The notes below the pieces were generated by a model. That model did no database searches. It was not told the DNA's origin and worked only from the letters and a program-made list of their open reading frames with translations. DNA of 64,000 bases from Diploptera punctata. Taxonomy: Eukaryota; Arthropoda; Insecta; Blattodea; Blaberidae. Location of the stretch: assembly GCA_030220185.1 (NCBI GenBank), contig JASPKZ010007548.1:248001-312000 (forward strand), in the 5' to 3' direction. This document shows positions 2,641-62,335 of this stretch, piece by piece (position 1 is the first letter of the stretch; each line of letters opens with the position of its first letter). Position numbers and translations under genes: made by a program.

Positions 2641-3180
2641 TGATATAATTAGACCAGTTCTAACATATGGTGCTGAGATATGGACTTTAAGAAAGAATAT
2701 CTGTGATCACATAGCCATGTTTGAAAGAATTCCGAGGAGAATTTTTGATGCAGTCAAATGTGGAGAAGCAGATATAATAGTGAGCTGTATAAACTATGTA
2801 AAGAAGTAGACATAACAATATATATCAGAGTGTCAAGGTTGAGATAGCTGGGGCATGTGAATCAAAATGGAGGTTAATAGGAAAAGTTAAATCCATTTTT
2901 AACAGATATCCAGAGGGAACAAGATCAAGGAGTCGACCGAGATCAATATGGTGGGATTGTGTGTGATGGGATCCGCAGGGGGCAAATATGGGAAATTGGA
3001 CCTGCTAATCAGGAGATATAGGCATGCTATGACTTGAATTGGTATGGTGGGATTGTGTGTGATGGGATCTGCAGGGGGCAAATATGGGAAATTGGACCTG
3101 CTAATCAGGAGATACAGGCATGCTATGACTTGAACTGGTATGGTGGACAGCACGAAGATTTTAAAGGTAAAAAAATATCG
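2641..3180 (+). pseudogene. LINE reverse transcriptase C-terminal remnant with a 96-bp tandem duplication
   Basis: It starts as VLTYGAEIWTLRKNICDH, the conserved YG.E.W region near the C-terminus of non-LTR reverse transcriptases, and soon runs into stops. Two 96-bp direct copies occupy about 2947-3138. A diverged third piece follows the SINE at 3583. Confidence 0.65.
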
Positions 3181-3282
3181 TGTATCTTGTAAGCCCATGT
3201 TTCCCTTAACAGAGATTTAGGCACTCTTCCCCTACAGGGTAGAATTTGAACCATACTAATTTAGTTACACTTGTTTTCGTAT

Positions 3283-3583
3283 AAATGTCATTTGAGTGGT
3301 CCGTGGTCAGCGTTCTGCCTCATACTGACATCTAGGAAACCAAGGTAGTACTAGGACAGGAAAATTCGGTAAATTTTGCTTAGAGACCTTTTCATTCAGG
3401 CTTAAGGATCTTTTACGAGCCTGAAAATCTTCAGACTCGGGACTCATGGCTTAAAGTCCCTCCCGGAGGACTTGCTCCTTGGATTTTTCCATCCTAGAAA
3501 AATCCATCAACCCTGGCCGGGTTTGAACCCGCAACCCTCAGGACCAGAGGCAAGGAGCATAACCACTAGTCCACCGCGGCATG
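3283..3583 (-). repeat. SINE family C, minus-strand copy
   Basis: Reverse copy with head GCGGTGGACTAGTGGTTATG and B-box GGTTCAAACCC. It sits in LINE-derived sequence whose 3' part (GGCATGCTACCACTTGAAC) resumes directly after it. Confidence 0.8.
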
Positions 3584-7196: not shown

Positions 7197-7850
7197 ATAT
7201 TTAAAGAGAAAAATTATACGCTCAGACCGGGACTTGAACCCGGGACCCTTGGTTTTCTAGTCCAAGTGCTCTACCATTTGAGCTACCTGAGCAAGTACCC
7301 ATCTAAACGCAAATCTTTCTCTATATACGTTGAAATTCCCGCCCCAAATGCTTTGAAGCCTTTGCTTCTATCTTTGCAAATGGCGGCTCCTATATTAAGA
7401 AGACATATTTGGGAATTATACATTACATTATAAATGCCAGTACGGCTATTTTCGATGTTTTTATTATTAATTTCATACATCTCAATGATGGATAAATCAT
7501 ATTTAAAGAGAAAAATTATACGCTCAGACCGGGACTTGAACCCGGGACCCTTGGTTTTCTAGTCCAAGTGCTCTACCATTTGAGCTACCTGAGCAAGTAC
7601 CCATCTAAACGCAAATCTTTCTCTATATACGTTGAAATTCCCGCCCCAAATGCTTTGAAGCCTTTGCTTCTATCTTTGCAAATGGTGGCTCCTATATTAA
7701 GAAGACATATTTGGGAATTATACATTACATTATAAATGCCAGTACGGCTATTTTCGATGTTTTTATTATTAATTTCATACATCTCAATGATGGATAAATC
7801 ATATTTAAAGAGAAAAATTATGCGCTCAGACCGGGACTTGAACCCGTATT
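7197..7850 (-). repeat. Tandem 302-bp array of a tRNA-like sequence
   Basis: Two full units and the start of a third (CGCTCAGACC at 7219, 7521, 7823). Each unit has a minus-strand tRNA-like head with acceptor GCTCAGG/TCTGAGC, D-arm GCTC...GAGC, a 5-base anticodon stem and T-arm CCGGGTTCAAGTCCCGG, plus about 225 bp of AT-rich spacer. The third unit is cut by a PLE foldback at 7848. A diverged relative is at 45.95 kb. A functional tRNA is unlikely because the anticodon loop is irregular. Confidence 0.7.
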
Positions 7851-13345: not shown

Positions 13346-14175
13346 TAACATCTTACTTATTAAGGTAGAATATGTTTATCACTCACCTCATATTGTTCCT
13401 CTTATTTGATTATAGACTAGTTTCGGAACATAGTTTCTGTTCCATCCACAGTAACATCACGACCGTTGTTCTGTCGTCTTGAAGAGTTGTCCTTCTCTCC
13501 TTCCATTGGCTGACTGAAAAACCTCGAAACCAGGTCATTCTCACGGGAATTTCAAAGTTCATTAATTTCTTCTTTTCGCTCTTTTGAATGTAGATCTTTT
13601 CCCAAACAGTAAGTTCTTTGGTTTTTCTATTTGTTTTAATAATTTAGCTTCTTTCTCGATAAGATGTTTTTCAGACCATGCATGGGCAGCCACTGCAGAT
13701 TTTTCTACTTCCCCTTTCTTGACATTCCTGAGATGTTCTTTAACTCTAGAGTTAAAGAACATCTCAGGAATGTCAAGAAAGGGGAAGTAGAAAAATCTGC
13801 AGTGGCTGCCCATGCATGGTCTGAAAAACATCTTATCGAGAAAGAAGCTAAATTATTAAAACAAATAGAAAAACCAAAAGAACTTACTGTTTGGGAAAAG
13901 ATCTACATTCAAAAGAGCGAAAAGAAGAAATTAATGAACTTTGAAATTCCCGGTGAGAATGACCTGGTTTCGAGGTTTTTCAGTCAGCCAATGGAAGGAG
14001 AGAAGGACAACTCTTCAAGACGACAGAACAACGGTCGTGATGTTACTGAGGATGGAACAGAAACTATGTTCCGAAACTAGTCTATAATCAAATAAGAAGA
14101 ACAATATGAGGTGAGTGATAAACATATTCTACCTTAATGAATATACCTCATAGTGAGAATTCCTAAAATAAGTAA
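13345..14175. mobile_element. PLE foldback 10, long near-perfect palindrome
   Basis: Arms of roughly 370 bp meet at AACTCTAGAGTT (about 13739-13752). The plus arm encodes RVKEHLRNVKKGEVEKSAVA, then KLLKQIEKPKELTVWEKIYI and FEIPGENDLVSRFFSQPMEG, ending ETMFRN. This is the end of the GIY-YIG endonuclease domain plus the C-terminal tail of a PLE protein. The outer ends are TATGAGGTGAGTGATAAAC. Confidence 0.85.
14040..14090 (+). ncRNA. Hammerhead ribozyme motif (PLE foldback 10, plus arm)
   Basis: CTGAGGA at 14046-14052, stem II GGAACA/TGTTCC, GAAA at 14073, palindrome ACTAGT, then C. The minus arm carries CTGTGGA (A6 changed) and should be inactive. The motif overlaps the 3' end of the coding frame. 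Confidence 0.78.
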
Positions 14176-14322
14176 CATCTTACTGTTCATTTTCCCTAAA
14201 AAGATCCCAGTTCCAAGTGACATAAAATTGAAAAAAAAAAAATCCAGGCTTAATGGGTTAAGAAGAACCTCATAATGTTATTTTATATTGTAATTTCACA
14301 AAAAGTGAAATTATTCACTTAC

Positions 14323-14638
14323 CCCACTTGTACATAACCTAAGTAATAACCAAGAATCTGTCCATTCCTGTCAGTGATGTTTGGAGGATCCCAAGTAGCA
14401 TGCAGAGCATGTGGTCCCACAGCTGTCACAGCCAAGTTGCGAGGAGGACCGGATGGAACTTCAGGTTCTGTAGTTACACTCACAGAACGGCTGGGAGAAC
14501 TAGCACCAAGCTGATTGAAAGCAATCACTCGAAAATAATAGGTGGTTGCTGGACGAAGGTCAGCTATTCTTGCCCATGGCTGAGGTGGAGAAGGCAATGA
14601 GTCAGAGTGAGACTCAGATTTTATTTCAGGCCAGTCCT
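14323..14638 (-). CDS. Dscam: Dscam-family receptor, end of FNIII-1 and start of FNIII-2
   Basis: This 316-bp exon (phase 1 in, phase 2 out) begins EDWPEIKSESHSDSLP. It then has the FNIII F-strand LRPATTYYFRVIAFNQLGAS, the linker TTEPEVPSGPP, and the A-to-C strands of FNIII-2 with HALHATWDPPNITDRNGQIL and GYYLGYVQVG. The acceptor is TTCCCAG and the donor GG|GTAAGT. The VPSGPP linker and NG.ILGYY motif are Dscam hallmarks. The exon is intact and in frame with its neighbours on both sides. Confidence 0.92.
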
Positions 14639-14794
14639 CTGGGAAGAAAAATAAACAATACTGAAATCTTTTAATTTAATACACTGATTAATATTAAATA
14701 CACTCTTAAATGTGCTGTATATATTTTTTCTTAAATTAAGATTTTATTTGCTAGAAAATATATAAAATAGCTACAAAGAAGATATATATACACA

Positions 14795-18285: not shown

Positions 18286-18336
18286 CTAAAAGGTTTTTGG
18301 GAAAATAAATACACTTCATATAATAAAGTTGGGAAT

Positions 18337-18897
18337 TTTTACATTGTGAGGTTTTCTTAATAAAAATCAAATGAATCGTGAATTGTTCTTACCTCATACA
18401 TCTATGTTATTTTAACACAGAACCGCAGTATTGGGAATCATCATTCCCATCCTCAGTTGTTGTCACGACTGTTGATACTTCTTTATGCCGGTCATTTTCT
18501 AAACTACCATCTGGTGCTGATTTGAAGAACTTTGTAATCAAATTTGGTTTGTCTGGAAACTTAAAATTCATAGTTCTAATATGGTTTTCTTGAATGTTTG
18601 TTCGGAAACTCAAAATTCATAGTTCTAATATGGTTTTTTTAATTGTTTGGGAACATTGAAAAAACCATATTAGAACCATGAATTTTGAGTTTCCGGATGA
18701 ACAAAATTTGATTACAAAGTTCTTCAAATCAACACCAGATGGCAGTTTAGAAAATTACTAGCATAATGAACAATCGACAGTCGTGACAACAGCTGAGGTG
18801 GGAATGATGATTACCGATACTGCAGTTCTGTGTTAAAATAACATAGATGTATGACGTAAGAAGAATTCACGATTCATTTGATTCTTATTAAATAAAT
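18337..18897. mobile_element. PLE foldback 11
   Basis: Ends are TTCTTACCTCATACATCTAT and ATAGATGTATGACGTAAGAA. The arms encode NFKFPDKPNLITKFFKSAPD, then SLEND, the PLE C-terminal tail. A 60-bp piece near 18560-18640 (AAATTCATAGTTCTAATATGG) is repeated in the left arm. The ribozyme core is degenerate (CTGAGGTGG, GATAC). Confidence 0.75.
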
Positions 18898-18967
18898 ACA
18901 CTGTTTAATTTATGATAGCATTTAAAACTCTCAATTCTGGAAATGTATGCTATTATACATTATGGTG

Positions 18968-25230: not shown

Positions 25231-26351
25231 ATAAAAGTTAAATGAAAATAAATGCCGTTATGAACTGATCAATGAGATGCAATTGAAATTTATTGACAAA
25301 TAACATGAGTTTTATTAAATTTCCAGCAAAATTACTAATGTCATCATATTTAATGTTAATTAATTAACATATATGAATCAGATATGATAAATTATAAAAC
25401 ATTGAACATAATTATGGAAATGACTTAAGAACCATTTAATATAAAAAAGATGACAAATAAAAATTCTAGCTCCATGAAAGAGTAATTCTTATTTTTGAAA
25501 AATAAAATGTTATTTGTTGCCCATTATAGGAAGAATTAATTAATAACAAAATTTGAATATTTACAATAATTAAATTAAAAATATAATCAATTCTGTAGGA
25601 TACAACATTTTAAAGATGAAAAAGTAACTAAATTCAAGAGTGAAGATAACTCACAGAAGTTAGTATTTCTTCAATGATGCTTTTTACAGCTTAGGTCACT
25701 AGTGTCACATTCACATCTGGGCATGAAAAGCCCAACAAATTTTGCTCAGTTATAATTTTTTTTACTCTTGAAGTTCTTTTACATGTCATAAATCAACAAT
25801 ATAGGACCCACCCCATAAATCCAATTTCCTTTCAAAGGAACCCATGCTCAGGAGAAACATTGTTTTTAAAGAAACATATTTGATACCAAAATTTTACTGA
25901 TTTTCTTTTATTCCACCCAAGAAGATTTTGATAATGAATATAATCATATTGTACATGTTGCTAAAATAAATGGTTTTGATGAAGACATAATAAAGAATAA
26001 ATTAAAGAAATTTAAACAACAGAAAAGGTTATAGGAATACACCACCCTACAACATGATTCCAAGAAAGATGTAAAATTCAAGAAATTTACTTACCATCCT
26101 GAAATTCATAATAAGTTTCAAAAAATTTTCAGAAAATTTAATATAATGTTGGCTCCAATTAACAAATTCAGCCTGGGTAATCAATCATCTGTTAACTAAT
26201 AATAAAGTTAACACCCCAGACAACAAAAAGTCTGGAATTTATCAAATTGATTGCAAAGATTGCAACAGGATATATATATAGGAAAAACAAAAAGGAATTA
26301 TATTATTTTTGGTCTGGACATCTTACCTCAATATTAATGTTGATTTGTTCT

Positions 26352-26390
26352 TGGACATGTTTCAAAACAATTCTGTTTTATCGTCAGCTT
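26352..26390 (-). ncRNA. Hammerhead ribozyme motif (foldback 13, left arm)
   Basis: Minus strand: CTGACGA, stem II AAAACA/TGTTTT, GAAA, palindrome ACATGT, then C. Confidence 0.76.
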
Positions 26391-26719
26391 TCCCAGACTG
26401 GTTTTATTTATGTTGCATTATGTTGCACCACCTGGATGTCGATGTCAGCTCCATCCTGTGGTTGGCAAAAGAACCTCCAAACAAGGTCACCCTCCATTGG
26501 AATATCAAAATTCATAACTCTGTTTCTCTTCTTCTGAATATAAATTTTTTCCCAAAAAAAAAAAATTTATATTCAGAAGAAGAGAAACAGAGTTATGAAT
26601 TTTGATATTCCAATGGAGGGTGACCTTGTTTGGAGGTTCTTTGGCCAACCACAGGATGGAGCTGACATCGACATCCAGGTGGTGCAACATAATGCAACAT
26701 AAATAAAACCAGTCTGGGA

Positions 26720-26758
26720 AAGCTGACGATAAAACAGAATTGTTTTGAAACATGTCCA
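26720..26758 (+). ncRNA. Hammerhead ribozyme motif (foldback 13, right arm)
   Basis: Same core on the plus strand, CTGACGA at 26723-26729. Both arms keep the full core, so one transcript in either direction would hold one ribozyme and its complement. Confidence 0.76.
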
Positions 26759-27629
26759 AGAACAAATCAACATTAATATTGAGGTAAGATGTCCAGACCA
26801 AAAATAATATAATTAAAATAACCTCAAAATATAACTTCCTAAAATTAAAACAAAAAGGAACTTGGAAACTCGTAAAAAAGAAAACTTCAGAAACATAAAG
26901 AATGGAGAAATTGAAAAATCAGCTATAGCAGCACATAGTTTATTAGAGCATCACAGAATTGAAAAAGAAGCAAAACTTTTGAAATATCTATCCAAACCTT
27001 TGGATTTAACAGTTTGGGAAAATATATATATTAAAAAAAACCATACTAGAACCATGAACTTCGAGATTCCAGACAAACCGAGCTTGATTACAAAGTTCTT
27101 CAAAAATACAACAGATGGCAGTTTAGAAAATGATTCCTTCAAAAGAACACCAGATGGCAGTTTAGAAAATAATTCCTTCAAAAAAACACCAGATGGCAGT
27201 TTGGATAATTACCGGCAAAAGAAAAAATTGACAGTTGTGAAAACAGCTGAGGATGGTGACGATGGTCGCTGATACTGCAGTGCTGTGTTTAAAAAAACAT
27301 AGAAGTATGAGGTAAGAAGAAACCACGATTCATTTAATTCTTATCAAGTAATGTGTATTTAAAATAAATGCACTTATATTATTTTCACCTTGTGTTTTCA
27401 AAAATTTGCAGATTAACAAACTGATGCTGTCATACAAACTAAACTCACAGTATAAATAAATATTTGACCTGCAGCTCAAATATTGGAAGAAACAGCATTA
27501 ACTTTAGTTGAAAATGCTAAGTCTGGTTAGTAGCAGACTCTGCAATTATCATGCATGAACAAATTTATTTGCCCACACAAACTATGAGTAATATTTATGA
27601 ATGGTAATTCTTGAAGGAAAGACAGAAAT

Positions 27630-32160: not shown

Positions 32161-32395
32161 TACTGTAGGAAATGGCCTCCAACAGAAGTCTCTTCCATTA
32201 TTTTTTATCCTTTGCTTTAGCCAGCCAATTCCTTATTACTATTTCAGTTCCTCTACTGTAATGCACCTAATTACTCTTTTGAATAAGTACTGGTCTTGTT
32301 AATGTTCTATGTAAGTGTATTCTTGTGTGTCTTTGTACTATGGAAGGTTTCATAATTTTGATCCCCACATCTCACACCTTGTGATTTTTATTTAT

Positions 32396-33379
32396 TAATT
32401 AAATAAAAATAAAACATAGTTTTATTTGATTTTCATATTTATTATATAATTCAGTGACAGCTGTTTCGGTACACTGTACCTTCTTCAGACATGTTAACAA
32501 ATTATGAATTGTGTTCCAACTGATCTAAGCAACAATACAACAATATTTATTTAAATTTTTAAATTTAACAAAGGGGATTCATTCAAATCAAGTTGAGAAT
32601 TTAACAGTTTTTTACTACTTTTAAACTTATTATTTTCTACAGCCTCCAAAAGATCTAACTTCTTACCCTTATCACAAATATGTAAAATTTCAAAATTTGG
32701 ATCGAAACAATGATTAAATTGGAATTTGGAATTGGAATTAAATTGGTGGTTAGCATAGTTTGAATTTTCTAAATTTCTGTTATATGCTCTCATGTGTTCC
32801 TTTATCCGAGATATAAAAGGTCTACCAGTTTGTCCTATATAGACATTGTCACGTGTGCCACACTTCAATTTATATACACCTGATAATTTTTCTTTTTTTG
32901 TTTTGGTTTTATTGTTTTATATCTCGGATAAAGGAACACATGAGAGCATATAACAGAAATTTAGAAAATTCAAACTATGCTAACCACCAATTTAATTCCA
33001 ATTCCAAATTCCAATTTAATCATTGTTTCGATCCAAATTTTGAAATTTTACATATTTGTGATAAGGGTAAGAAGTTAGATCTTTTGGAGGCTGTAGAAAA
33101 TAATAAGTTTAAAAGTAGTAAAAAACTGTTAAATTCTCAACTTGATTTGAATGAATCCCCTTTGTTAAATTAAAAAATTTAAATAAATATTGTTGTATTG
33201 TTGCTTAGATCAGTTGGAACACAATTCATAATTTGTTAACATGTCTGAAGAAGGTACAGTGTACCAAAACAGCTGTCACTAAATTATATAATAAATATGA
33301 AAATCAAATAAAAGTATGTTTTATTTTTATTTAATTAATAGAATGGATTTTCATCAAGTAAACACCAACTCAATTGATT
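32396..33379. mobile_element. PLE foldback 15, GIY-YIG encoding on both arms
   Basis: Bounded by ATTTTTATTTAT at 32384-32395 and 33380-33391. Arms of about 400 bp meet near 32900. The minus arm encodes MKCGTRDNVYIGQTGRPFIS, then RIKEHMRAYNRNLENSNYAN and KKLDLLEAVENNKF, a GIY-YIG endonuclease of a PLE family different from the others. The plus arm repeats the same protein from RIKEHMRAY onward. The right end extends with TCATCAAGTAAACACCAACT. Confidence 0.88.
32450..32497 (-). ncRNA. Hammerhead ribozyme motif (foldback 15, left arm)
   Basis: Minus strand: CTGAAGA, stem II GGTAC/GTACC, GAAA, palindrome ACAGCTGT, then C. The plus-arm copy near 33240 has AAAAC in place of GAAAC. Confidence 0.78.
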
Positions 33380-33477
33380 ATTTTTATTTATGATGAATGG
33401 TAAAAAAAGAAAGATTATAAAACTATTCTTCATATGCTAAATGAAATAAAAGAAAATATATAAAGAATAATGAAGTC

Positions 33478-34725: not shown

Positions 34726-35216
34726 CAAACTGATTTCTTCTTTTCTCCAAGTTGAAGAAACGATGGAGCAACAGCTTTGAAACATATGTCCGACAGAACT
34801 ACCATATGAGGTTAGAATGTTTAAAAAATACAAACTCATTTACGATGATAATAATAAACAATGCTGTTACTAACACCTGTATTACTGTATTACAGACAGC
34901 TAATGAGTAAGGTCAGATATTTTCGGTAACATAGATTTTCCTTACATATTTATGAGGAAATTCAGTGACATTTTATCACACGTAATAAAAAAAAATATTG
35001 ACAGTTGACATGTTTGATCCAATGCTATTGTTATGGACCTTCTCTCGAATGCATGCAAGGAAGAAATGATGGAACCCTTATTATGGCAATACTCTGAAGG
35101 GGTTTCTTCTTTTGGCTACGAAGGTTACAAGTCCCTTCTCCTTATGGAGTGAAAGAGTGAGAATATTAGCAGTTCACATATTTTCTGGGGTTTTACTTGT
35201 AGTTGTCAGACTGTAA

Positions 35217-35490
35217 TTAATGTACACAACTAAATTATTGTAATCAAATGGTAAAGAGAAAAATTTATGCCTGAACCGGGAATCGAACCCCGAACCTTCA
35301 GCTTTCCGTGCTGTTGCTCTATCCATTGAGCTAATCCAGGCTTAAGGTTCGGGGTTCGATTCCCGGTTCAGGCATAAATTTTTCTCTTTACCATTTGATT
35401 ACAATAATTTAGTTGTGTACATTAATATACTTATTTCAATCATAGTAACAGCTTTAGCTTCTTAATATTAATGTCAGACTGTAAGTTTTA
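35217..35490. repeat. Inverted pair of tRNA-like SINEs (family D)
   Basis: AACTAAATTATTGTAATCAA and the tRNA head GCCTGAACCGGGAATCGAAC on the left are followed directly by their complement, meeting at CCAGGCTTAAGG (about 35336). The minus tRNA-like part forms acceptor GCCTGGA/TTCAGGC, D-arm and T-arm. The plus part has only its 3' half. Confidence 0.75.
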
Positions 35491-37945: not shown

Positions 37946-38235
37946 AATGGCACTTGGTGATAAGCTGGTCCACCTTCAGAGCTTGTTCACATGAACAGGG
38001 TCTGTTGCAGTTACATACTACAGTCAGTCTTTCTCTTTTTCTCTTTGTCATTGCCTTCTCTCTTTTTTCTTATGATAAAAAGGCATGCATTCAACCCCGA
38101 TTTTACAGCCTGTCATTTTTATTTATGGCAATATATGAAGGATAAAGTAAACAAAGACAATATGCACACAATCCACGAGTTCAAAGACAGTATTTTTATG
38201 AAAAATCGGGAGAATTACATTAGATGAACTTGCAC

Positions 38236-38540: not shown

Positions 38541-38627
38541 CTGCTTTCATGTTGTCATTTTAGTATGTGTAAATGGCAATTTCCTTCATAGATATCAGGA
38601 ATGTGTGCAAACAGGTGGTCATAATGT

Positions 38628-38800
38628 TTTATTTTAGGAAGTTCTTTTAATCAAGTTATTTTGAGTATGTAATATCTTACCTCAATTTAATGTTGATTTG
38701 TTCTTGAAGAAATTATAAGACTAATCAAAACGTGTTCAAGAACAAATCAACATTAAATTGAGGTAAGGTATTAGACTCAAAATAACTTGAGGTGGTCATA
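38628..38800. mobile_element. PLE foldback 19, smallest
   Basis: Only the outermost 60-70 bp of each arm remain (ATCTTACCTCAATTTAATG and complement). The ribozyme is reduced to AAACGTGTTCAAG. The tail ACTTGAGGTGGTCA follows. Confidence 0.7.
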
Positions 38801-39331
38801 ATTTTTAATACCTTCTGTAGTAGAGATTAGTAAAAAATGTAAGTACTCTAAAATTTAATAGCTGAATCTAGAGACAGCAGCAGACTTCATTCACTAAGAA
38901 CAACAACCAGTGATTCTGAGCCTGCTTTCTTGCCAAATGCCATAGAGAATATCACTGACTCCTCTGTAAAAAATTGAGTGATATACATATCAATGTAAAA
39001 AAAAAGTGCTTGCATGTGCTACACCATACACTTTTGCATTCATAAAATTTGATGATGGTTGATCCCCATTTCAAATTCTTCTTCTATCCCTTCAATCACA
39101 TCATCCTCATTGATTAATGTATCACTATTCTTTCCACTGGAAATGATGATTTTATTCATACCCATTCATCACAATTCGGGACATGGGGGTGCTTCCCTAG
39201 TAGGAAATTTCTTAGCTAGACTAATTTATTTATTTCATAAAACTTACATTATTATGAAAAATAATATGGCACGGTCAAGTTAATAAATAATATTTTAAAA
39301 TACAATAGGAGGTAACATTAAGAGGTCTTCA

Positions 39332-40900: not shown

Positions 40901-41104
40901 AATTATTTAATTAACCCTTAATTACTTGTGTGAGATAATTTTTTTCTGTTAGGTTGAAAGACGCTACTATTTAGTGACAATTACATTTATGAGATTCCCT
41001 GGAACTCACCTATTCTCAAATGGACTCGTTCCAGCACATGTTTCAGGTGTTAATTAAATAAAAATAAAACGTAGTTTTATTTGATTTTCATATTTATTAT
41101 ATAA

Positions 41105-41150
41105 TTCAGTGACAGCTGTTTCGGTACACTGTACCTTCTTCAGACATGTT
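41105..41150 (-). ncRNA. Hammerhead ribozyme motif (foldback 16, left arm)
   Basis: Minus strand: CTGAAGA, stem II GGTAC/GTACC, GAAA, palindrome ACAGCTGT, then C. Confidence 0.8.
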
Positions 41151-41202
41151 AACAAATTATGAATTGTGCTTAGATCAGTTGGAACACAATTCATAATTTG
41201 TT

Positions 41203-41250
41203 AACATGTCTGAAGAAGGTACAGTGTACCGAAACAGCTGTCACTGAATT
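41203..41250 (+). ncRNA. Hammerhead ribozyme motif (foldback 16, right arm)
   Basis: Identical core on the plus strand, CTGAAGA at 41210-41216 and cleavage C at 41242. Confidence 0.8.
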
Positions 41251-41516
41251 ATATAATAAATATGAAAATCAAATAAAACTATGTTTTATTTTTATTTAAT
41301 TAATAAATATGGATTTTCATCAAGTAAACACCAACTCAATTGATTATGTTTCAGTTGTATTTAGTTTTTTTGGAATAGCTAATGATGCAATTATATTTAT
41401 TTTATGCCATTGTTGCTGCCTGCGGAAATGTTTTATTCCGCATGCGCCTAGCATCTATAGAGAGATATTTTCTATTCTTTGTACTTACAATTTCAAGTTT
41501 AAGAGTAAAGATGAGT

Positions 41517-44950: not shown

Positions 44951-45040
44951 TCATTTGTTTTAATCTGTTAAATACACTAAGCAGTTATATTATTTTTGGT
45001 CTGGACATCTTACCTCAATATTAATGTTGATTTGTTCTTG

Positions 45041-45082
45041 AACATGTTTCAAAATAATTCTGTTTTATCTTCAGCTTTCCCA
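45041..45082 (-). ncRNA. Hammerhead ribozyme motif (foldback 22, left arm)
   Basis: Minus strand: CTGAAGA, AAAACAGAAT stem II with one mismatch, GAAA, palindrome ACATGT, then T. Confidence 0.7.
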
Positions 45083-45205
45083 GACTGGTTTTATTTATGT
45101 TGCATTATGTTGCACCACCTGGATGTCGATGTCAGCTCCATCCTGTGGTTGGACATTGACATCCAGGTGGTGCAACATAATGCAACATAAATAAAACCAG
45201 TCTGG

Positions 45206-45250
45206 GAAAGCTGAAGATAAAACAGAATTGTTTTGAAACATGTTCAAGAA
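45206..45250 (+). ncRNA. Hammerhead ribozyme motif (foldback 22, right arm)
   Basis: CTGAAGA, stem II AAAACA/TGTTTT without mismatch, GAAA, ACATGT, then T. Confidence 0.75.
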
Positions 45251-45939
45251 CAAATCAACATTAATATTGAGGTAAGATGTCCAGACCAAAAATAATATAA
45301 TTAAAATAACCTCAAAATATAACTTCCTAAAATTAAACACTAAGCAGTGTCTTGATTTAGACATAACAGTGCTCTGTGCAGTTCCCACTTGGTAAAGGGC
45401 ATAAGAATGTAGAAGGCATATGTGGTGCTCCAATTGTAATATGATGGTGTTAAAAATGCTTGAGAGTAGAGAAAAAGAGAGACGATAGACTGAGTCCTAC
45501 AGAACAATATCCCACAAAGCAACTTATTGCCTTTCCTTTAAATAACAGGGTTAATATAAAAATAGTTAAATAACAAAATAATGCACTTCTTCTGATGAGA
45601 GTTATTTGAAATAAGTATACATATTATATACTATACATCATTCTTCCAAATGTATCTTTCCCTCAAGCCTATTTCTGTGTTAGTCACTTGTTTTCGATAT
45701 AGATGGACATTGTGTTCTTGCCACTAAAAAAACTACAAAAAAATCTTATCTTGGCTAATAAAAAATATTGAACCAAATTATACTGATTATTTTGTTTGTT
45801 GTAATTGTACTTCAACAAATTATTTTGCTTTTAAGCATAATTAAAATCAGACTGAGCGATACGGTATATTCTTTAGAATGCAAAAGAAATATGAAGCCAG
45901 CTTGTATGTGTTACATAGCATAAATAATCAAAATATTTG

Positions 45940-46245
45940 AAGACAAAAATATATGCTCAGACTGGGATTTGAACCCAGGACCTTTGGCTTTCTATACCAA
46001 TGTTCTACCAATTGAGCTACCTGAGCATACCAATCTAAATGCAAATTTTTTTCTTATACATTCCCGAGTGCCAAATACTACGAACTGTTGCTTGTTCATG
46101 CAAATGACGACTTCTTTTTTAAGAAGACTTTCATTGGGAATTTAAACATTACTTTATAAAGCCAGTAGCTCAGTTGGTAGAGCATTGGCATAGAAAGCCA
46201 AAGGTTCTGGGTTCAAACCCCCAGTCTGAGCCTATACTTTTCTCT
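45940..46245. repeat. Inverted pair of tRNA-like units
   Basis: A minus-strand head (GCTCAGGTAGCTCAATTGGT, T-arm CTGGGTTCAAATCCCAG) at about 45955-46030 and a plus-strand head at about 46160-46232 (GTAGCTCAGTTGGTAGAGCA), with a spacer similar to the 302-bp array unit at 7.2 kb. AAATATA lies near both outer ends. Confidence 0.7.
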
Positions 46246-46589
46246 TGAAATATAATTTGTCCTTCAGAGAGAAGTATTAAATTAATAATAAATAATCATT
46301 GTCTACATGGCATTACTAGTGATAAAGACTACCTAAAAATATGATTCTTGGACAGTTAGCTTCAAAATGTTTGTCTCTCTTCAGTAACATTTTTCAAATA
46401 GAATTAATGAAGTTTTAAATAAGTAGGGAGATAAATAAATTAAAAGTAACTATAGCACTATATACTCTGTTACCCTAACTAGGGAACCATGCTTCATTTT
46501 CACTGGATAATGACTCTTACGCAGTATTCATCTAACCTTACCCAATTCCTTATAAATTTGTATGCCTTATAGAAGTACATGATTTATAT

Positions 46590-48085: not shown

Positions 48086-48284
48086 GAATAACCTCATGAT
48101 GTTACTTCCTAATGTAATTTATTAATACTTATATAGGTTTATAGGTTTGGTATCCAAGCTTCCTTCCCTAATAACACAAAAAGTACTCTATGTCTCATCA
48201 TAATTTCTGTACATGTGGTTGAAAATAATACTCATGCAAATATGCTTGAAGTTGGTGAGGTAGGAAAGGCACAAGGTAAGTTAC

Positions 48285-48560
48285 CACTGACGATGAGATG
48301 TGCTGTGTGTGTAGTCACTCTTGCAGGGTTGCTGGCGACACATGTGTAGTTGCCGCTGTCATCACGCCTCACTTTATTCATCGCCACAATGCTAGAGTAA
48401 GCATCGAACGGAGTGATGCGGATGTGGCTCGGCAGTGGTTCCCAGTTCTTCAGCCACGTCAGATTCAGTGGGAAATCCCCCTGGTGCACCGTGCATGACA
48501 CCTGGACCCGAGCCCCCTCGGCCAACTTCGGGAAATGGAACGGTGTGATCTCTGGGGGAA
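48285..48560 (-). CDS. Dscam: Dscam-family receptor, Ig7-type domain exon, copy B (downstream)
   Basis: This second complete Ig exon (276 bp, phase 1-1) begins VPPEITPFHFP and has Cys in VQVSCTVHQGD, the core FPLNLTWLK, and the F-strand DDSGNYTCVASNPA. It ends in LIVSG. The acceptor is TTGCAG|TT and the donor G|GTAACT. It aligns with the exon 4.5 kb upstream through PP.I.PF, GD.PL...WLK, the SS pair and Y.C.ASN. The next exon starts a normal Ig8 (VPPEWLIEP). Two Ig7-type exons in a row, with equal phases, fit mutually exclusive splicing as in Drosophila Dscam2 exon 10A/10B. Serial inclusion of both cannot be excluded from DNA alone. Confidence 0.88.
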
Positions 48561-48630
48561 CTGCAATGTGCAAGAGTGCAAGGTGCAAGAGTGCAATGGT
48601 GCATGTGCATATGTGCTCTGGTGCAGTGCT
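48561..48630 (-). promoter_or_regulatory. TTGCAC-type short repeats at the Ig7 copy B acceptor
   Basis: Directly upstream of the copy B exon the minus strand reads as successive CTTGCACTCTTGCACCTTGC units in place of a plain polypyrimidine tract. The role is unknown; it may be part of splice choice. Confidence 0.4.
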
Positions 48631-48959
48631 CTCGTGCAGGCCAATCATCCATATCCAATTCATGTCTTTGTGTCATCTGATATTCTACAAATTAACAATT
48701 GTTAATATTTCAATGAAAAGAATGGTTCAAATAGTCTCAATTGGTGGACATTTCAATTGAAATTTTTATATTAGTTTAAATTTATTTCATACTTTATGCC
48801 CTTAAATAATTGTTAACAGAAATATCTCACTAATATTACTTTTTTTTTTTAACAATTAATAATTTGCTTTTTCATTATTTAACAAAAATAGTATTAAGAT
48901 TTGTCAATATATTTACCTAATGTCTTATATATAAGTGATAGATTAATAATTCATTAGAG

Positions 48960-52730: not shown

Positions 52731-53013
52731 ATTCTTAAACCCTTAAAAATCTATGGACACAGTAAGTTATGGGACACTTTTTAAATTTTTAGTTCTCTTA
52801 TATGAAATTGCATTTTACATATCTATATTTTCAACAGTAAGCTACGCCATGTGGGGTAACACATTATGATAATGAAGGTTGTTTTAAAAAAAATCAGTTG
52901 TTAAATTATTGATTGACACAAAGACTTGACTTGCAGGTGGATGAAATGTGCGATGTGCTGGGGTGCCAAGTCCCAAGAATAGCTAAAACAAGGGGAGGCT
53001 GTGTGTGAGATAC

Positions 53014-53304
53014 CATTCACTGCCAACACGACAGAGTGGGAAGCTGTGGCAGCTCGATTGCTGGCTTGGCAAGTGTAGCGTCCGCCGTGTTCTGTGCTCA
53101 GTTGTTCAATCAGCAGTGTGCTACTGAATTCCCCCAGACTGCGCACCGTGACTGATGGCAGTTCCAACCTCTCAACACTGTCTTCATCCTTGAGCCACTG
53201 GATAGTAAGAGGAGAGTCCCCTTTCGTGACGATACACTGCAACCCCAAGCGTTCACCCAACCGGACACCGCTCTCAATGGAAAATGGATAAATGCTGGGT
53301 GGCT
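53014..53304 (-). CDS. Dscam: Dscam-family receptor, Ig7-type domain exon, copy A (upstream)
   Basis: This exon of 291 bp encodes one whole Ig domain of a neuronal or immune homophilic adhesion receptor; the domain would be extracellular. It opens with EPPSIYPFSI, then has the B-strand Cys (LGLQCIV), the GDSPLTIQWLK core Trp region and the F-strand GRYTCQASN. It ends in VLAVNG. The acceptor is TTGCAG and the donor is G|GTATCT, both phase 1, so the exon can be skipped or swapped without breaking the frame. The GD.P..I.WLK and PP.I.PF signatures are those of Dscam Ig7, the domain that is duplicated and spliced alternatively in arthropods. The intron just upstream lacks a good polypyrimidine tract. 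Family is certain; the paralogue (Dscam1, 2, 3 or 4) is not settled. Confidence 0.88.
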
Positions 53305-53574
53305 CTGCAATGGTCCACACAGATTCTTCAGTCTGGGGCTGTTCACAATCTTTTAGCATAAACCATAGCCAATACTTCATATATATTAATTACCTTCTTG
53401 TAAAAGCATTGCAATAACGTGAATTTGCAAATGTTGTGCAATTTAATTACCTGTGGAAACATTTACAGATCATGAAATGAAGAGTTTCAAAAATATGCAA
53501 TACAACAACATATGCCATTGAAGAGGACATATGATCCTCCCTCCATATAAATTATAGTTAATAATATGTCAGAA

Positions 53575-61664: not shown

Positions 61665-62335
61665 AATGAGTTGGAGAAAATGTTTTAACATCTCACCTCA
61701 CAAAGTTGTGTGTCTTCACGATACCAGTTTCAAAAGTATAGTATTACTTCCATCTTCAGTCAAATTCCAACTGTTGAAATTTCATCGTTAACATAGTCTT
61801 CTGAACTGCCATCTGGTGTAGATTTTATGAACTTGGAGATTAAATTATTCTCGTCGGGGATATCAAAATTCATTGCTTTATATTTATTCTTCTGAATATA
61901 TATCTCTTCCCAAATTGTTAATTCCAAAGTTTTCTCCAAACGTTTAAAAATTTTAGTCTCTTTCGATTTTATGATTATCTAGCAAACAATGAGCTGCAAT
62001 TGCCGATTTTTCAATTTCACCATTTTTAATATTTCTAAGGTGTTCTTTTGTACGAATTTCTAAATTCCTTTTAGTTTTTCCTATATATGCTTTATTGCAG
62101 TCATTGCAACTGATTTTGTAAATTCCAGATTTTTTACTATCTGGGACATTAACTTTCTTATTGGTTAATAGTAGATTATCCAGGCTAAACTTGTTAATCA
62201 GTGCTAATGTAATATAAAATTTGTTAAATATTTTTTTTAATTTTCTGTGTGTTTCAGGATTGTAAAACATTTTCTCCAACTCATTTATTAATGTAAATAC
62301 TTCATAGTGTTTCCTCCCACTGTAATTTTAATTAA
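61665..62335 (-). pseudogene. Single PLE 3' part with GIY-YIG endonuclease
   Basis: Minus strand encodes EKMFYNPETHRKLKKIFNKF, the linker, then KSGIYKISCNDCNKAYIGKT and NLEIRTKEHLRNIKNGEIEK, the GIY-YIG domain with its Cys pair, ending AIAAHCLLDNHKIERD. A frameshift near 61953 separates the tail (NKYKAMNFDIPDENNLISKF). GIY-YIG is the endonuclease of Penelope-like elements. This is the most complete endonuclease in the window. The repeat TTTTCTCCAACTCATTTATT lies at both ends (about 61670 and 62270), a possible end duplication. Confidence 0.82.
61714..61766 (-). ncRNA. Hammerhead ribozyme motif (single PLE, 61.7 kb)
   Basis: Minus strand: CTGAAGA, stem II AAGTA/TACTT, GAAA, ACTGGT, then A. 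Helix I GA/UC plus a wobble. Confidence 0.72.

Follow-up and report, generated by a model that had tools for sequence, protein, structure and literature searches.

Penelope-type elements (PLEs) in the Diploptera punctata genome usually insert as head-to-head double copies, in one insertion event. In the 64,000-nt stretch of DNA that we analyzed (the window), the foldback at 26.3 kb is a PLE 3' end copied twice head to head, inside another PLE. Its left arm (26298-26550, minus strand) is the 3' end in antisense orientation and lacks the tail; a centre joint (26551-26559) separates it from the right arm (26560-26814, plus strand), which is the same 3' end in sense orientation and the only one followed by the 3' tail (26815-26846, plus strand). 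Aligned as 26296-26550 and 26560-26814, the two arms span 255 nt with a gap of 9 nt and are 100% complementary after rounding, with one substitution. Exact target-site duplications (TSDs) of the sequence AAAACAAAAAGGAA enclose the unit at 26284-26297 and 26847-26860 (plus strand); the original prediction had correctly seen an exact duplication here and had given its length as 12 bp, which is in fact 14 bp. The word AACAAAAAGGAA occurs in the window at 26286 and 26849 and nowhere else. The joined flanks of the unit aligned across the boundary to 62243-61829 (72.8% over 423 columns), and this stretch (61829-62243, minus strand) is related to the PLE frame that the unit splits and is itself uninterrupted. 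The left-flank frame contains one frame change just before the insertion point. The 26.3 kb stretch folded barely better than shuffled sequences (z = -0.88).

The flank alignment, together with the protein domains found in a long arm of the same family (family A), identifies the arms as PLE 3' ends, both facing outward. In this long arm (L052), RVT_1 (PF00078) was detected at 2678-3286 with an E value of 1.1e-13 and GIY-YIG (PF01541) at 605-1189 with an E value of 8.5e-05, the two domains lying in separate open pieces; the uninterrupted relative also carries GIY-YIG, detected at 61953-62327 of the window (E = 1.1e-05). With a reverse transcriptase (RT) domain, a GIY-YIG domain, a 3' tail of 30-40 nt, inverted ends and a short TSD, the element is an endonuclease-bearing PLE of the Penelope/Poseidon type. 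Minimal hammerhead ribozymes are common in PLEs and do not define them; in Rfam searches, with E values of up to 1 for the window and up to 10 for 26290-26860, no hammerhead was listed by the models used, which minimal variants can escape. A foldback or MITE-type DNA transposon was rejected because the full tail stands at one end only, the centres mostly differ and the long arms carry RT and GIY-YIG domains. A possible conserved 3' hairpin (TATGAGGT/ACCTCATA) was set aside as evidence: 97% of the cells pair, no pair has both sides changed, so that compensatory changes are absent, and TGAGGTAAG presumably also resembles a splice donor. The many miRNA-family matches fell below the gathering score and were discarded as a by-product of long hairpins.

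The window holds further two-armed units, all given on the plus strand and with many different 3' ends among them. The second unit of family A (44974-45348) has 12-bp TSDs at 44974-44985 and 45337-45348 and a tail on the right arm only; its arms (44985-45133 and 45152-45300) are 99% complementary, and ACACTAAGCAGT occurs in the window at 44974 and 45337 and nowhere else. Two units with 12-bp TSDs and an extension on the right side only belong to family C. The first (32384-33391) is bordered by ATTTTTATTTAT at 32384 and 33380, a third window copy of this word lying at 38115, and has arms (32393-32818 and 32915-33340) that are 99% complementary. The second (41038-41357) has equally complementary arms (99%; 41050-41168 and 41185-41303), and its TSD copies at 41038 and 41346 differ at 1 of 12 bases. 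Exact 12-bp duplications had been predicted at four foldbacks: three proved exact, and the one at 41.05 kb carries this mismatch. Two TATGAGGT-type units were found at 13346-14184 (12-bp TSD, tail on the right arm only) and 18303-18902 (13-bp TSD, tail on the left arm only). The remaining units are a two-armed unit at 456-942 (14-bp TSD at 456-469 and 929-942, tail on the left arm only), a small one at 38613-38802 (13-bp TSD, extension on the left side only) and two tRNA-bearing units with an extension on the right arm only, of family D at 35204-35484 (13-bp TSD) and related to family E at 45920-46298 (11-bp TSD).

Genome-wide, a 30-nt word near the family A 3' end gave 14,138 forward and 13,957 reverse matches with at most 2 mismatches in the 3.12-Gb genome, corresponding to about 28,000 matching family A ends, and the control for this word gave zero matches. 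Our sample comes from this one genome and from its first contigs (C1-C6), and consists of exact matches only, at the first 100 listed places. These included 41 head-to-head neighbours within 5 kb, compared with 5 tail-to-tail ones. Among the 59 clusters of the list, 52 were two-armed, one was uncertain (L036) and six showed no partner arm (L018, L027, L037, L043, L053 and L054); in three of the six (L027, L037 and L043), a duplication of 11-24 nt adjoins the lone arm. Both arms carried the search word in 47 clusters, and the partner lacked it in five (L015, L024, L034, L042 and L049). The expectation that nearly every PLE copy is two-armed thus holds for the 26.3 kb family within this sample. 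The 66 family A units analyzed below, each measured as two arms read inward from the 3' end, comprise the 47 listed ones and 19 from outside the listed exact-match sample, namely 12 of 14 picked for both arms (L107 and L110 were dropped because the second arm lacked the search word), 4 further loci and 3 from the window. L001, L004, L006 and L008, which are the window's own unit or repeat readings, were omitted from the family A counts. A flank-to-flank word of at least 10 nt, most often 12-13 nt, was found in 62 of the 66 units, compared with 1.1% of 1,980 mismatched flank pairs. A single TSD surrounds the complete unit, and the 26.3 kb site has an uninterrupted relative, in agreement with the prediction that the inverted dimer is itself the inserted unit and did not arise by later fusion.

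The tail, 35-45 nt long, was present on one arm only in all 107 evaluable units of families A, B, C and E. In family A, a tail of ~35 nt stood on a single arm in 66 of 66 units (65 by score, L033 by eye), 33 times on the left and 33 times on the right, with L033 counted as right. Evaluation by eye gave a single tail in 16 of 16 units of family B, where that of L070 is shortened, in 12 of 12 of family C, and a single full tail in 13 evaluable units among 14 of family E, in two of which (L123 and L126) the other arm also carries 10-14 nt of the tail. Since the search words lie inside the arm, the sampling is not biased towards tailed arms. Families B and C have 6,122 and 25,199 genome matches, and among 100 exact places listed for each, 36 and 14 formed exact head-to-head pairs within 4 kb. 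The family B sample consists of 16 of the 18 exact pairs listed, 64 of the 100 places having no exact partner. That of family C was drawn from 7 listed exact pairs and 9 places picked by hand that lacked an exact partner; five of these had a partner within 1.2 kb and four had none. For family E, 14 pairs were picked and L114 was dropped, its pair not being the outermost. In three further family A units, the partner of the untailed arm is 22-36 nt long and consists of tail only, and in L015 and L042 the tailed arm is paired with an arm that starts further in. Two junction words for tail arms blocked at the inner start site had few genome sites (4 and 1). The one-tail rule means that the two ends of a unit are not equivalent.

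The two arms of a unit mostly end at nearly the same point of the element. Measured against one long arm, they were equal within 50 nt in 51 of 65 family A units (the rearranged L040 was omitted from the length tests), compared with a mean of 16.1 and a maximum of 28 of 65 in 20,000 re-pairing trials. The listed units alone gave 37 of 46 versus 16.2 expected, and the units with both arms longer than 110 nt gave 24 of 30 versus 5.4 expected. The spacer between the arms was at most 50 nt in 12 of 16 units of family B, 8 of 12 of family C and 9 of 13 of family E, short mismatched centres being counted as none. Variants also tend to be common to both arms: private substitutions within a unit averaged 0.73% per site in 46 family A units, versus 1.53% when arms were re-paired within length classes (the lowest of 2,000 re-pairings was 1.06%), and identical arms were found in 15 of 46 units versus 3.5 expected (maximum 9). 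This test, which omits L033, L021b, L040, the reference L052 and pairs compared over less than 60 nt, confirmed the expectation that an arm resembles, on average, its partner in the unit more closely than it resembles arms of other units. In the equal-armed L032, the left arm carries 23 private substitutions and the other arm 2, with indel differences between the arms at 37 places, possibly owing to an assembly error or local hypermutation. Taken together, the enclosing TSD, the common truncation and the common variants show that most units arose in a single event from a single source.

Centre joints mostly differ in position, as had been predicted: the 65 family A units showed 60 distinct centre coordinate pairs, and 56 units had a pair of their own. 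Filler was present at 28 of 65 joints and an overlap of 0 or more at 37. Among the 37 filler-free units, the overlap was at least 2 nt in 23, compared with 16% of simulated blunt joins, and the 31 joints with an overlap of 0-8 nt averaged 2.2 versus 0.69 for simulated blunt joins; the centre microhomology proposed for checking is therefore in excess, and as real overlaps allowed mismatches whereas simulated ones used exact words, this excess is an upper estimate. When fillers of at least 10 nt (13 units) were compared with the element and the flanks, clear element copies were found in L014 (23 nt) and L048 (52 nt) and short matches only in the others. These exact element pieces suggest template switching during joining. 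The centre was palindromic in 51 of 66 units, with arms of 14 bp around a loop of at most 60 nt, and the loop was 0-2 nt in 11 of 66. Several centres lie at self-complementary words of the element (AATATT, AATT and CCAGACTGG), which annealing of two antisense ends would explain. The position 93-98 nt inward of the search word (CCAGTCTGGG in sense) accounted for 24 of 130 family A arm ends and for 23 of 92 in the listed sample. This position coincides with the self-complementary CCAGACTGG, so that a joining hot spot is the simpler reading of the cluster; it may alternatively be an RNA 5' end, the sequence resembling an initiator motif for transcription start. Hammerhead cleavage was rejected as the source of this arm end because the Rfam scans of the window and of 26290-26860 listed no hammerhead.

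Each palindrome is probably the product of one PLE insertion by twin target-primed reverse transcription. The endonuclease would cut both target strands ~12-13 nt apart and leave 3' overhangs, which would become the TSD. On the element RNA, cDNA synthesis would be primed by the 3' end of one target strand at an outer ("tail") start site and by that of the other strand at an inner one, ~35-45 nt away. Both cDNAs would grow towards the 5' end of the element and in most cases stop at nearly the same place, which is what two cDNAs that follow one RNA molecule to its end would do, and the two antisense cDNA 3' ends would then be joined head to head through short microhomology or short filler, in several cases at a naturally self-complementary word. 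This reading draws its support at the sequence level from the one TSD per unit, the single-arm tail, the mostly near-equal truncation, the variants common to both arms on average and the mostly new centres, and from it we infer the order of the strands, the polarity of the overhangs, the copying of just one RNA and the joining enzymes.

According to the portions of the study cited here, purified Poseidon PAc of Anolis carolinensis, a GIY-YIG PLE, cuts the two target strands in vitro, extends each of them and starts reverse transcription internally; the authors take the tail to be the interval that separates two RNA start sites (PMC11167929). The two-strand cleavage and extension and the tail between two start sites resemble what we propose. 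Those portions mention no inverted dimer, whereas the genome here indicates that each site is used once per insertion, and the start sites of PAc were not seen to differ between the top and bottom strands in vitro (PMC11167929), so that a strand-specific pairing of sites would go beyond what PAc showed. Equal independent use of two start sites would predict that about half of the units carry two tails or none. The one-tail rule, together with the two-strand extension by PAc and its two RNA start sites, is most simply explained if each target strand primes at one site. Arms that end together, at points that otherwise vary widely, favour one RNA.

The original prediction had offered template switching onto the second strand or twin priming from both nicked strands; the latter fits best, and a first strand that is copied back on itself is the poorer fit. 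In this unlikely alternative, a tailed first cDNA would fold, copy itself as far as the inner start site and join the break, and trimming at the centre would make the arms unequal. Such folding would explain the equal truncation and the common variants without two polymerases, and the filler of L048, with its 52-nt element copy, shows that joints can involve some copying beyond a plain join. However, every round of copying would have to end at the inner RNA start site, and the untailed arm, which would be the copy, is the longer one by at least 4 nt in 21 of 65 family A units (the tailed arm is longer in 25, and the two are within 3 nt in 19), with lengths such as 544/1736 and 368/760 nt for the tailed and untailed arms. 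The three units that join a tail-only arm to a longer untailed arm do not fit either. Loops of 0-2 nt are too tight for a plain hairpin, so that the 11 units with such loops would need later trimming. Longer untailed arms, tail-only arms and near-zero loops thus argue against folding, although trimming at palindrome centres could mimic unequal arms and blur the first and third of these points.

Similarly improbable is a dual target-primed synthesis in which each target strand copies an RNA molecule of its own. It would explain the single tail if a protein dimer presents two different sites, and two RNAs could have produced the arms that differ by more than 50 nt in 14 of 65 units. Moreover, of 94 private substitutions in 29 units compared over at least 100 nt, 17 recur in other units, most of all in L108 (4 of 6), so that some units may combine mixed source copies. 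Random truncation points on two RNAs would not coincide, however, as the arms do at 217/219, 522/522, 627/631 and 1311/1315 nt, in either order, and arms of one unit show half as many private differences as arms from different units.

Self-priming on an antisense transcript is very unlikely here. It was suggested for the endonuclease-bearing PLEs of the rotifer Adineta vaga, whose Penelope copies, in the passages cited, are described as head to head with palindromic junctions, 8-10 bp TSDs round whole inserts and a 31-bp tail at one inverted end that is termed optional (PMC3846280). Head-to-head inverts, junction palindromes, TSDs and a single-end tail are thus common to both genomes, whereas the few copies there contrast with tens of thousands of matching ends here, and the optional tail contrasts with a strict one-tail rule in our sample, with equal truncation and with either arm being the longer (PMC3846280). 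Antisense self-priming does predict head-to-head palindromes, but their outer ends should then match, yet a single end is tailed, and the two fixed start sites would be left without a reason.

The original prediction described the units as ready-made, and it is extremely improbable that palindromic units are transcribed and copied whole: although four centre coordinates are common to 2-3 units each (9 in all), two of these four sit at self-complementary words, and the 60 distinct centres among 65 units contradict such an origin for most units and indicate a dimer built anew at most insertions. Palindromes are a known artefact of long reads, but two separate insertions with later fusion, or folded sequencing reads, can hardly be credited either, being contradicted for most units by the single TSD that encloses each unit, beyond which the flanks differ, and by the uninterrupted relative of the 26.3 kb site.

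Twin priming is familiar from LINE-1, in which synthesis on the element RNA is also primed by the second target strand, so that one insertion has inverted parts. There it is occasional and the second priming is internal, whereas in family A it would be the usual form, with both primings in the 3' region, ~35-45 nt apart. More broadly, PLE twin priming may be obligate: a protein dimer would hold one RNA with two start sites, one per strand, two polymerases would follow each other along that RNA, the cDNAs would be joined head to head preferably at self-complementary words, and tandem RNAs that carry a tRNA and are unrelated to PLEs would have spread by the same route, to tens of thousands of sites. 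We put this wider proposal at slightly less than an even chance. Head-to-head PLE copies, their TSDs and the tail were already known, and a curation guide, in the part cited, describes inverted pLTRs with short 3' extensions (PMC8969392); the strict rule, its scale and the inference drawn from it are new, and our search of open-licence literature found no paper that ascribes to PLEs a single tail per unit, equally truncated arms or twin priming. The mode of PLE integration, the frequency of inverted copies and the role of the tail are long-standing questions, for which the one-tail rule and equal truncation provide a concrete model that is testable in the purified Anolis system and yields a prediction for the two strands in each product. 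If the sampled families are typical, ordinary retrotransposition can add many thousands of near-perfect palindromes to a genome.

Two of the two-armed families carry tRNA sequence. Family E (sampled at L113-L126) is a tRNA-Ser-like element in tandem monomers of ~302-304 nt, located at 7197-7846 of the window, where 45920-46298 and 35204-35484 are its relatives; the latter is the unit of family D, a family with 2,859 matching genome sites. Family E has 43,501 matching genome sites with at most 3 mismatches, same-strand neighbours within 1.5 kb were spaced 289-313 nt apart in 24 of 25 cases, and it is inserted as PLE-type head-to-head units with a TSD and one full tail. Retrozymes likewise show a tandem arrangement of monomers. 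Those of animals, in the passages cited, are non-autonomous, with monomers of ~300 nt and a hammerhead ribozyme (PMC7229834). Family E resembles them in being non-autonomous with tandem monomers of roughly 300 nt, and differs in having tRNA-like sequence where they have the hammerhead (PMC7229834). Among 20 Rfam matches for L126 (E up to 5), a tRNA was listed and no hammerhead. Finally, minus-strand frames with Ig and fibronectin III (FN3) domains lie at 14319-14675, 48232-48672 and 52901-53389 in this repeat-rich region; one of them matches a DSCAM model below the cut-off, and the frames are perhaps DSCAM exons.
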